DNA of 52,918 nt from positions 1 to 52,918 of the forward strand of contig NZ_JADYUD010000013.1 in assembly GCF_021531595.1 (NCBI RefSeq). The letters are read 5' to 3'. The translations under genes were made by a program, and so were the position numbers. The stretch is from Fusobacterium perfoetens (GTDB lineage Bacteria > Fusobacteriota > Fusobacteriia > Fusobacteriales > Fusobacteriaceae). Positions within the stretch are counted from its first letter, which is position 1, and each line of letters begins with the position of its first letter. Shown piece after piece: positions 24,835 to 30,276 of this stretch. The notes under the pieces were generated by a model. It did no database searches. It had not been told where the DNA came from and saw only the letters and a list, made by a program, of their open reading frames with translations.

Positions 24835-24870
24835 AAAAAAACACCTCCAAAATTTCTAATAAAAAATTTG

Positions 24871-24938
24871 TCTGTGCCCCGGTCATCGTACAGGCCGACT
24901 GGCGGGCGGCATCTTTTTAAATAAAAGCTGGTCACAGA
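24871..24938 (-). promoter_or_regulatory. GC-rich structured leader element of tnaA, candidate cis-regulatory RNA
   Basis: Between the tnaA promoter and start codon the minus strand folds well. P1 pairs UCUGUG (24938-24933) with CACAGA (24976 is not involved; partner is 24876-24871). P2 is a CUUUU/AAAAG hairpin (24927-24913). P3 pairs GCCG (24910-24907) with CGGC (24897-24894), and its C-rich loop (24906-24903, CCCG) can pair with CGGG at 24881-24878 as a pseudoknot. The core 24876-24910 is about 77% GC in a very AT-rich region. A U-run (AAAUUUUUUA) follows P1 and a ribosome-binding site lies close behind, so either termination or translation could be controlled. I matched it to no riboswitch class I know. 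Confidence 0.6.
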
Positions 24939-25005
24939 TTCCAGCATATTTAACATAACGAGAACAGAACTTAAAAAATTTAATCTTTCCTGTTCTGTTG
25001 AGACT

Positions 25006-25034
25006 ATATTATCATTTTAATAAAAAAATGTCAA
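25006..25034 (-). promoter_or_regulatory. tnaA promoter
   Basis: On the minus strand a consensus TTGACA (25034-25029) is followed 17 bp later by TAATAT (25011-25006); GATAAT with a shorter spacer overlaps it. Transcription would start near 24999, giving a leader of about 165 bases. The first 35 bases could form an AACAGAAC/GTTCTGTT hairpin (24999-24992 with 24970-24963). Confidence 0.65.
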
Positions 25035-25466: not shown

Positions 25467-26129
25467 ATGACTTTTAATGACAGCTTTGAATATTATACTA
25501 TAATAATAAACTTCCTTGAAAAGACACTTGGGGATATAGCAGAAATAACTCTTTATAGTTTTGAAAAAAGTAAAGAAGGAGAACTTATTTCTAAATCTTC
25601 AAACTGCAGCTTTGAAATGGGAAGTTCTATTCCGAAAACACTTGGAAAGCTTTTGGAAAAATATGCAAAAGATGAAGATCCAGATCTTAATTTTGTAACA
25701 AATTTTCCAGGAAAAGCAAATGACGGACAGCTGTTCAGAGTATCTACCTTTTTTATAAAAGACAGTAAAAAAAATCTAAGAGGTGTCTTTAATATAAGAA
25801 TAGATATTTCAAATATGATAGGAGCAGCGAATTTCCTTAATGGGCTTTTAAAAGCCATAACAGGAGGAGATGAAAGAAATATTGCTAAAGAATCTGATGA
25901 AGTTGATGAACTTGGAACTATAGAAGAATATGCACAATATGTTATTAATCAATATTTCAATAATTTGAAAAAGCCAATAGATGCATTGAATACTTCAGAA
26001 AAAATAGAAATAGTGAAACAACTTAACCAGAAAGGTATATTTCATCTTAAAGGAAGTGTTGGTGAACTGGCAAAGAGATTCCATACTTCTGAAAAGACAA
26101 TTTACAGATATTTAAGTACAGGACAGTAA
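25467..26129 (+). CDS. YheO/DauR-type transcriptional regulator (PAS-like plus HTH)
   Basis: A 220-residue DNA-binding regulator. The N-terminal half matches the YheO-type PAS-like domain (FLEKTLGDIAEITLYSFE... RGVFNIRIDIS) and the C-terminus carries a helix-turn-helix (about 195-218: GSVGELAKRFHTSEKTIYRYL). YheO-family proteins such as DauR often control adjacent amino-acid catabolic genes. It is divergent from tnaA and upstream of the NSS symporter, so it is a good candidate regulator of tryptophan use. Its ligand is unknown. GGGAGG precedes the ATG. Confidence 0.85.
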   Translation: MTFNDSFEYYTIIINFLEKTLGDIAEITLYSFEKSKEGELISKSSNCSFEMGSSIPKTLGKLLEKYAKDEDPDLNFVTNFPGKANDGQLFRVSTFFIKDSKKNLRGVFNIRIDISNMIGAANFLNGLLKAITGGDERNIAKESDEVDELGTIEEYAQYVINQYFNNLKKPIDALNTSEKIEIVKQLNQKGIFHLKGSVGELAKRFHTSEKTIYRYLSTGQ

Positions 26130-26276: not shown

Positions 26277-27767
26277 ATGGCTGAAGCAAGAGAATTATGG
26301 CAAAGCAGAAAAGGATTTATTTATGCAGCAGTAGGGGCAGCAATAGGACTTGGAAACTTATGGAGATTCCCGTTCCAAGCTTATAAAAACGGAGGAGGAG
26401 CATTTTTCTTCCCTTACATAGTAGCTCTATTTACTTGTGCAGTACCATTAATGATATTAGAATATCAATATGGTAGAAAAATTAGAGGAGGATCAACAAA
26501 AGCCTTCAGAATGCTTGGAAAGAAGTATGAATGGGTTGGTTGGCTTCAAGTAATGGTACCGATAGTTGTAATGATGTTCTACAGTACAATTATTTCTGTA
26601 TCTGTTGTATTTATGGTATGGTCTTTATTACATGCTTTTGGTGTAGTAAACTGGATGTCAAATCCTGGTCCTATAATGGGAATGATTGCAGGAAGTGCGT
26701 CAGGGCCTTTTGACTTAGCAGCAGGAATCAGTAAGTATATGTTAAGCTTTGTAATCGTTGTATGGCTTGGAAACTGGATAATCGTTAAAAATGGTATATC
26801 TGGTGGAATAGAAAAATGTTCTAAAGTTTTCACTCCAGTACTTATGGTTATGATGGTAATATTTATGATTAACTCTGTAAGACTTGATGGTTCAATACTT
26901 GGTCTTAATACATTATTTACACCTGATTTCAGCAAAATAGCAAATCCTAATATCTGGGTTGCTGCTTATGCACAAGTATTCTTCTCTACAACTCTTGCAG
27001 TTGGAGTTATGATAGCTTATGGATCTTATATTCCTGATGATTGGGATATAGTAAACAGTTCATTTATGACAGTATTCTCAAATGCGTCATTTGACATAAT
27101 TGCTGGTATAACAGTATTCTCTACACTTGGACACCTTGTTACAAAAATGGGTGTTGGATTTGACTCTTTCGGAAGCGGTGCAGGAGTTGCCTTCATAGCT
27201 TTCCCAATAGCAGTATCAACAATAACTTCTAATACAGTATTACAAGGATTAATAGGATTCCTATTCTTCTTCTGTCTATTTATAGCAGGTCTTTCTTCAA
27301 GTATTTCAATGCTTGAATCATTTGCAGCATCTGTTATGGATAAATTTAACATAGACAGAAAGAAACTAGTATCAATCATATCTGTAGTTGGATTTATAGG
27401 AAGTGCTTGCTTCTCAACTTATGCAGGATTTAACTATATTCTTGATATAGTTGATGCCCATGTAGGAAACTATATTATAGCAACTTCAGGACTTCTTGAA
27501 ACAGTGCTTATGGCTAAACTTTATGGACTTGAAAGAATAAGAGAAGATGCGAACGAATTCTCTGATTTCAAAATTGGAAAATTATTTAACTTCTTATTAA
27601 AATATGTAACTCCTATCGTTCTTGGAATTACAGTTATATCAAACTTAATAAGCGGATTTACAAGCATGACTACTGCAAAACTTGTATTTGGTTGGGGAAC
27701 AATTGCAATAATGCTTGTGACAGCAACTATTTTCTACAAAAAACCATGGGAAAAATCTATTGATTAA
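26277..27767 (+). CDS. Neurotransmitter:sodium symporter (NSS) family amino-acid transporter
   Basis: Sodium-coupled amino-acid importer. The start at 26277 is chosen because AAGGAGGT lies eight bases upstream; an in-frame ATG at 26247 lies ahead of that site. The 496-residue product has the NSS signature in segment 1 (AAVGAAIGLGNLWRFPF), the GGGAFFFPY motif and about 12 hydrophobic segments. F. nucleatum Tyt1 is a characterised tyrosine transporter of this family, but the gene here is longer, and its position in the tnaA region suggests tryptophan or another aromatic substrate. A MetS-type microprotein gene follows. Confidence 0.92.
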   Translation: MAEARELWQSRKGFIYAAVGAAIGLGNLWRFPFQAYKNGGGAFFFPYIVALFTCAVPLMILEYQYGRKIRGGSTKAFRMLGKKYEWVGWLQVMVPIVVMMFYSTIISVSVVFMVWSLLHAFGVVNWMSNPGPIMGMIAGSASGPFDLAAGISKYMLSFVIVVWLGNWIIVKNGISGGIEKCSKVFTPVLMVMMVIFMINSVRLDGSILGLNTLFTPDFSKIANPNIWVAAYAQVFFSTTLAVGVMIAYGSYIPDDWDIVNSSFMTVFSNASFDIIAGITVFSTLGHLVTKMGVGFDSFGSGAGVAFIAFPIAVSTITSNTVLQGLIGFLFFFCLFIAGLSSSISMLESFAASVMDKFNIDRKKLVSIISVVGFIGSACFSTYAGFNYILDIVDAHVGNYIIATSGLLETVLMAKLYGLERIREDANEFSDFKIGKLFNFLLKYVTPIVLGITVISNLISGFTSMTTAKLVFGWGTIAIMLVTATIFYKKPWEKSID

Positions 27768-29034: not shown

Positions 29035-29958
29035 TTAGTCTTTTTGTGTGCTGTAAAAAAGTTTCTTTGAAATCATATCTTCTTTTTTATTTTCAAGCAT
29101 AAATTTAGCATGTTCAATAAACATTTTTCTTATATCTTCCATCATACCAAGGCTTGTAAGTTTAACTTTTACTGTAAATCCTTCTTTTTCAAGAGCTTCT
29201 TTCCAGTCAACAGCTATATCGTTATTAGCATGATCTCCTGCTACAAACATAAATGGCATAAGAACAACTTTTTTAATTCCATCTTTTTTAAGTCCTTTTA
29301 CAACATCATCAAATTCAGGAAAACCTTCAACAGTTCCAACATAGAATTTATATCCCATAGATTTTGCAGTATAATCCATAGCAGGATAAGCTGCATTTCC
29401 ACTGTCATGTGTTCCGTGTCCTACAAGAACAACAGCTTCATCATCAGCAAGTTTTCCAGTTTCTTTGTTTATAATTTCTGCAACAGATTTGTAATCTTCA
29501 GGAGTTGTAAGAAGAGCTGAACCTATTCTTACTTCTTTAAATTTATCTTTGTACATATCAAGCTGTTGTTCAAGAGTTTTAGCTTCAACTCCGTTGATTA
29601 TATTTGTAGGCTGAACTATTATGTGAGTGTATCCTTCAGCTGCAAGTCTATCAAGAGCTTCAGCAGGATTATCTTTTACAATTCCTCTGTCTTTAAGCCT
29701 TCTCATAATAATTCTTGATGTGTACGCTTCTCTTACTTCCATTTTTGGAAATTCTTTTTCAGCTTCAGAGTTTACTGCATCAATGGTATTTTTTCTTGTG
29801 TCGTCAAAAGTAGTACCAAAATGCACCATAAGAACAGATGCCTTATCATTTTTTCCCATTGTTTTGTAAAAATCAGATTTCACAAATCCTCCTTCTTCAC
29901 CAGATGCAGCTGCTGAAATGGCAGCTGTAAGCATTAGTGCTGCAAATAATTTTCTCAT
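29035..29958 (-). CDS. cbiK: Exported CbiK-type sirohydrochlorin cobaltochelatase
   Basis: Anaerobic-type class II chelatase of the CbiK family, which inserts cobalt into sirohydrochlorin. The 307-residue product starts with a signal peptide (MRKLFAALMLTAAISAAASG), so the enzyme is likely periplasmic, as in Desulfovibrio CbiK-P. Metal-site residues are present: His181 in VGHGTH, Glu211 in VEGFPEF and His243 in AGDHANND. The gene stands alone downstream of a cobalamin riboswitch and a terminator/antiterminator, so low B12 should turn it on. Substrate could be cobalt, iron or nickel with a tetrapyrrole. GAGGAGG precedes the ATG. Confidence 0.9.
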   Translation of the reverse strand: MRKLFAALMLTAAISAAASGEEGGFVKSDFYKTMGKNDKASVLMVHFGTTFDDTRKNTIDAVNSEAEKEFPKMEVREAYTSRIIMRRLKDRGIVKDNPAEALDRLAAEGYTHIIVQPTNIINGVEAKTLEQQLDMYKDKFKEVRIGSALLTTPEDYKSVAEIINKETGKLADDEAVVLVGHGTHDSGNAAYPAMDYTAKSMGYKFYVGTVEGFPEFDDVVKGLKKDGIKKVVLMPFMFVAGDHANNDIAVDWKEALEKEGFTVKVKLTSLGMMEDIRKMFIEHAKFMLENKKEDMISKKLFYSTQKD

Positions 29959-30045: not shown

Positions 30046-30077
30046 CTGTCCTCGCAGGCAGTAAAACATATATTTTT

Positions 30078-30215
30078 ATAGCAGGTCTCCTGATTTAGAG
30101 TCATTTTACTGGCAGTCCTTCCCAAAGAAAAATCTTCAGTGGTATTCTACTTTCATCATCATCACAGTGGCGGGACCATGGGAGAATCTCACTCCTCTTC
30201 CCTTTTAACTGCTTA
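30078..30215 (-). ncRNA. Cobalamin riboswitch aptamer
   Basis: The minus strand carries the B12-box sequence CAGGAGACCTGC near 30092-30081, preceded by the other conserved blocks: AAAAGGGAA near the 5' end (about 30207-30199), CCCGCCACTGTGATGA in the core, and ACCACTG...TGGGAAGG. P1 ends GCAG/CTGC enclose it. This order is that of an AdoCbl-type riboswitch. It controls cbiK. Exact class (AdoCbl or hydroxocobalamin-selective) was not resolved. Confidence 0.92.
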
Positions 30216-30276
30216 TGCAGACTATAAAAATTTTTTATATAATCTGGAAAAATCCAGTGATTATATACTATATATA

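Follow-up and report, generated by a model that had tools for sequence, protein, structure and literature searches.

In Escherichia coli, tryptophan induces tryptophanase through the mRNA leader of tnaCAB, which acts by means of the TnaC peptide. Glycine riboswitches are amino-acid-sensing leaders of a degradation gene; they often occur in tandem and turn the gene on. A tryptophan-binding RNA site obtained by selection goes by the name of CYA motif. A 2022 review lists validated amino-acid riboswitches for glycine, lysine and glutamine only (PMC9971707). The trpB motif, an orphan RNA of Firmicutes and Fusobacteria, is linked to tryptophan genes; it consists of two hairpins, the second an intrinsic terminator, and lies mostly before ABC transporters (PMC11109978). 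Among selected RNAs, the simplest site for tryptophan requires a G beside it whose position may vary (PMC5492135), and a synthetic tryptophan riboswitch contains ACGCCACUGG-loop-CCAGGACCGU (PMC11126579). The literature searched, which covered few subscription journals and no bioRxiv preprints, yielded no report of a natural tryptophan riboswitch; an earlier description elsewhere is possible. Two surveys, of 26 and of 50 genomes, in which the trpB motif is described make no mention of tna.

The locus described here lies in a 52,918-nt stretch of Fusobacterium perfoetens DNA (the window; Table 1). A GC-rich element occupies the minus strand between a well-formed promoter sequence (25034-25006) and the Shine-Dalgarno (SD) sequence (24848-24844) of tnaA. 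The earlier note had remarked on a segment of about 77% GC (24876-24910) in a tnaA leader, and both remarks hold. The segment has 77.1% GC against 30.5% for the window and ranks first among all 52,884 35-mers, with no other at that level; the gene downstream belongs to the NF009709 tryptophanases (716 bits), and a transcript start predicted near 24999 would give a minus-strand leader of ~165 bases. A TTGACA-TAAAAT pair similar to the promoter of the window precedes the element in five other loci (L003, L004, L085-L087). The note could name no riboswitch class for the element. Neither the leader of the window nor seven homologous loci reach the gathering score of any Rfam 15 family, and permissive thresholds bring no match in the leader of the window either. 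The element is much smaller than the glycine riboswitch and unrelated to it in sequence and structure; it is set apart from the trpB motif by description, that is by anatomy and gene association, and not by alignment.

Table 1. Features of the tnaA locus and its leader element (window coordinates).
Feature	Position	Strand	Remarks
tnaA, tryptophanase, 463 aa	23443..24834	-	NCBIfam NF009709, 715.7 bits, cut-off 285
Shine-Dalgarno GGAGG of tnaA	24844..24848	-	read directly
Whole element, covariance model R1 match	24869..24915	-	48.5 bits, E 4.9e-10, as a member of the R1 training set (independent support comes from other loci); sole match in 2.06-Mb genome
P1 3' strand GGCA	24875..24878	-	covariation in anchored alignment
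P2 3' strand GG	24879..24880	-	covariation in anchored alignment
Internal loop 3' side GACC, consensus RACC	24881..24884	-	A, C, C invariant, 56/56
P3 3' strand CGAU	24885..24888	-	covariation
P3 hairpin loop	24889..24895	-	length and sequence variable
P3 5' strand GUCG	24896..24899	-	all four pairs covary
Internal loop 5' side GCCA, consensus GCYN	24900..24903	-	G, C invariant; Y covaries with R opposite
P2 5' strand CC	24904..24905	-	pairs with GG 24880-24879; CU/AG in L085-L087
Bulge G-N (here GC)	24906..24907	-	G9 invariant, 56/56
P1 5' strand UGCC	24908..24911	-	pairs with 24878-24875; columns covary
Predicted anti-SD strand AAAAGAUGCC	24908..24917	-	overlaps P1 5' strand; predicted to pair with GGUGUUUUU of the SD region (whole-leader centroid and fragment ensemble)
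-10 box TAATAT	25006..25011	-	17-base spacing from -35 box; read directly
-35 box TTGACA	25029..25034	-	read directly

Other features flank the gene. A divergent YheO-like regulator with PAS and HTH_22 domains (25467-26129, plus strand) adjoins tnaA and may contribute an additional level of control. In L148, a tryptophanase of the second subfamily has a divergent relative of this regulator (29% identical) in front of it. A transporter of the sodium:neurotransmitter symporter family (26277-27767, plus strand) lies beside the tnaA region without a copy of the element and is possibly a tryptophan importer. Farther away, a cobalamin riboswitch (Rfam RF00174, 101 bits; 30063-30241, minus strand) lies upstream of a CbiK cobalt chelatase gene (29035-29958).

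Comparison of homologous leaders identifies the covarying structure as a nested hairpin with an internal loop, running from 24911 to 24875 and made up of P1, a G-N bulge, the CC/GG pairs of P2, the GCYN/RACC loop and P3. On an alignment of 23 sequences this fold pairs 91.7% of cells and shows double changes in 8 of 11 pairs, and none of 500 shuffles matched its covariation score; that alignment was built without a rule on P3 pairs, and its first members came through a pairing filter. An anchored alignment of 56 distinct elements, its columns fixed by conserved blocks, shows double changes in 10 of 14 pairs, with far lower values in slid controls. Its blocks were chosen with at least three of four pairs at the P3 ends, and for that reason P3 is favoured in it. 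Covariation extends over P1, P3 and the closing pair of P2 (C-G to U-A once). The folding energy of the single sequence is unremarkable (z of -0.2 for the core and -1.9 for the whole leader); support for the element is comparative. Lying in the 5' leader in the orientation of the gene, the element is an RNA structure with both conservation and covariation.

The internal loop contains variation that lay outside every selection rule. Y on one side and the R of RACC on the other occur as C-G (20), U-A (19) and U-G (17) but never as C-A, and therefore very likely pair inside the loop. The G that opens the loop and the C that ends it never vary and are able to pair. The unpaired part of the site would then be the C opposite A-C, plus the base N. 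Natural versions carry CCA, CUA, CUC or CCU in the loop.

This fold differs from the one first drawn for the locus. The check proposed in the earlier note, a search of other Fusobacteriota tnaA leaders with a covariance model, did return a conserved and covarying element. The note had envisaged a P1 of UCUGUG/CACAGA, a P3 of GCCG/CGGC and a pseudoknot. The letters of both helices are present in the window, but of 60 homologous elements only 2 could form the CUGUG/CACAG pairing and only 10 a GCCG/CGGC-type helix, and the pseudoknot is not kept; the helix-plus-pseudoknot fold was rejected for this reason. What is strongly supported is the broader proposal of an unnamed riboswitch-like element with tryptophan as a plausible ligand, whereas the detailed secondary structure and the pseudoknot were wrong.

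Additional hairpins occur in the leader of the window. A long one, AACAGAAC...GUUCUGUU (24963-24999, minus strand), opens the predicted leader and by eye is absent from relatives. Another, GCUGG/CCAGC (24920-24945, minus strand), is followed by UUUUAUUU; UCUGUG in its loop can pair with CACAGA after P1. A CUGUG like that of this second hairpin is found only in L126-type leaders, and the hairpin is perhaps a lineage-specific addition.

The same comparison bears on a TnaC-like mechanism, in which a leader peptide would stall the ribosome on tryptophan. TnaC controls tnaA in E. coli, and an open frame, lacking a recognisable SD sequence, spans the leader of the window. Against this, hairpin lengths of 24, 20 and 16 represent all three classes modulo 3, a small frame with both a Trp codon and an SD sequence is found in only one of 76 leaders, and RNA pairs are conserved while codons are not. 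TnaC needs a translated peptide, and none is conserved in the element-bearing leaders. We give this mechanism very little credence.

Tryptophanase genes were collected from the genus of the window, from its family (records of Fusobacterium, Cetobacterium and Psychrilyobacter) and from 84,980 bacterial and archaeal species genomes. In the leaders that have it, the shared block runs from P1 through G-N, CC and GCYN to a variable hairpin, and on through RACC and GG to the partner of P1. This block precedes tnaA in the genus of the window and in other Fusobacteriaceae genera including Cetobacterium, in Lachnospiraceae, Ruminococcaceae, Christensenella, Sedimentibacter and Sinanaerobacter, and in Pleomorphomonas (Alphaproteobacteria). 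Homologous leaders span Fusobacteriota, Clostridia, Peptoniphilaceae and this one alphaproteobacterium. Gene and element are jointly present or absent in seven of seven genomes of the window's genus; several tnaA genes, for example in Pelosinus and Psychrilyobacter, are without the element. Degenerate or expanded versions stand before tnaA at L047 (2909-2968, E 0.0026) and at L008 (117-150), the latter keeping chiefly the 3' half.

Covariance model R1 was trained on leaders of first-subfamily tryptophanases only. Over 98 Fusobacteriota genomes it gave 20 matches in 19 genomes (E <= 0.05), every one adjoining a tryptophanase. Over about 1,500 genomes, in overlapping sets, at least 78 loci were located, 76 of the 78 just upstream of a tryptophanase (tandem partners before one gene being counted separately). 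Twenty-nine of these, training sequences included, accompany the subfamily of the window and 47 a second subfamily of ~490-550 residues, assigned by NCBIfam as tryptophanase and absent from R1 training. Matches at L146 (E 0.011) and L189 (E 8.7e-4) adjoin no tryptophanase and are probably false. The many-genome searches scored the best 15-63 candidates per genome, and because so few were scored, presence counts are lower bounds and absence is weak evidence. Among the best candidates per genome, no match was found in 198 genomes of Spirochaetes, nor any beyond Pleomorphomonas in 240 of Alphaproteobacteria; both absences are weak in this sense. Spread by phage was considered and set aside: viral contigs gave 29 pattern matches, the best at a model E of 0.0018 (L203) and the others at E >= 0.04, and these were taken as chance. 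The element is consistently associated with genes of one metabolic function, tryptophanases of two subfamilies.

This gene association helps to discriminate between ligands. Tryptophanase is PLP-dependent, and the cofactor had also been put forward as a plausible ligand. In G037, however, the tryptophanase carries the element while a tyrosine phenol-lyase (TIGR02618, 854 bits), which belongs to that superfamily and also uses PLP, does not, and this makes PLP unlikely. In G032-G034, copies with 47% identity (probably tyrosine phenol-lyases) are also without it, and no other PLP enzyme follows any strong match. A PLP riboswitch has, in our judgement, virtually no claim.

The internal loop itself points to tryptophan. 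With its closing pair, C-GCCA...GACC-G, the element of the window is identical, letter for letter, to the aptamer of PMC11126579, a comparison made post hoc, prompted by the CYA motif and the gene context and then checked against the printed sequence. The motif arose in 201 of 400,000 composition-preserving shuffles of that aptamer. The synthetic riboswitch concerned, Blc3 (PMC11126579), appears to be aptamer 70-727, which PMC12566513 attributes to Majerfeld and Yarus 2005. Blc4, the second tryptophan aptamer printed in PMC11126579, is without the GCCA/GACC loop. Aptamer 70-727, as represented by Blc3 and used to build synthetic translational ON switches for tryptophan, shares with the natural element the GCCA/GACC loop, the C-G pair closing one side and the helix on the other. 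A G flanking the loop on its 5' side may be a further common feature: next to the internal loop a bulged G is invariant in the natural element, and going by the text of PMC5492135 it may be the counterpart of the G that the selected site requires. The natural element differs from aptamer 70-727 in its two-base G-N bulge, its two-pair P2 and its CUA, CUC and CCU variants; it precedes tryptophanase genes and can be tandem, and common descent is not implied.

Conservation, covariation, the near-exclusive association with tryptophanase and the match to a selected aptamer together support the earlier proposal of a riboswitch-like element for which tryptophan is a plausible ligand. The same structure could instead recognise indole or another tryptophan derivative, since only tryptophanase genes carry it, and substrate and product fit that pattern equally. 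The loop, however, matches an aptamer selected for L-tryptophan, and the ON logic predicted below suits a substrate better than a product, so that indole seems decidedly improbable. A binding site for a regulatory protein, and not a metabolite sensor, is less probable again. Proteins could recognise a hairpin of this kind, conserved and with an internal loop, but the presence of element and gene in distant phyla would require a co-transferred protein, and the match to a protein-free tryptophan aptamer would be left unexplained. The element probably senses tryptophan directly and switches tnaA on.

From the computed structure and gene association we infer the ligand, transcription of the leader, translational control and the direction of switching. 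We propose, with considerable confidence, that the element is a natural tryptophan-responsive translational ON riboswitch in the tnaA mRNA leader. At low tryptophan, the SD sequence of tnaA would be held by a strand of the element itself, here the P1 5' strand. Binding of L-tryptophan to the GCYN/RACC internal loop would stabilise P1-P2-P3, the anti-SD strand would be taken into P1, and the freed SD sequence would allow tryptophanase to be made. The substrate would thereby induce its own degradation.

Folding predictions are partly consistent with this scheme. In the whole-leader centroid predicted for the window, AAAAAGAUGCC is paired with the SD region. Ensemble folding finds in-element anti-SD pairing in 39 of 55 leaders (71%), against 44% with the variable strands shuffled; the anti-SD is the P1 5' strand in 19 leaders and the P1 3' strand, which often extends as CCUC, in 21. 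Both arrangements predict that the SD sequence is freed on ligand binding. When the aptamer is enforced, predicted mean SD accessibility rises from 0.27 to 0.49, with an increase in 43 of 55 leaders. No gain is seen in the remaining 12, among them close relatives of the window (L126, L123, L127). These 12 leaders, and a U-run that follows shortly after P1 in Peptoniphilaceae leaders, would suit a tryptophan riboswitch of opposite sign or on another platform (OFF, or transcription termination). We regard this as unlikely: substrate induction is what one expects of a degradative gene, and a freed SD sequence is predicted in 43 of the 55.

Tandem arrangement is common to the natural element and glycine riboswitches. 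Two elements stand back to back before a second-subfamily gene in G322, G429, G447, G843 and G851-G853, genomes of one family that is apparently Peptoniphilaceae-like. The related leaders of L168, L171, L173, L175 and L176 have diverged upstream copies before an intact element. Some of these copies perhaps hold an inserted hairpin, and arrays of up to three copies possibly occur in leaders of this type. It is likely, in our view, that the elements form a natural class of aromatic amino acid riboswitch, sharing the binding loop of the test-tube tryptophan RNA, with an anti-SD on either P1 strand and two tryptophanase subfamilies under its control; tandems could steepen the response.

If the proposed tryptophan ON switch is correct, tryptophan would be the fourth amino acid with a riboswitch, beside glycine, lysine and glutamine, and nature and in vitro selection would, in a rare case, have come to one binding site. 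The elements would also be a natural source of parts for tryptophan sensors. An argument that places anticodons in amino-acid sites has drawn on the selected tryptophan site (PMC5492135). At the corresponding place the natural versions have CCA, CUA, CUC and CCU, which makes that idea directly testable. For the organisms themselves, the switch would account for a possible TnaC-independent induction of tryptophanase in anaerobes that produce indole.
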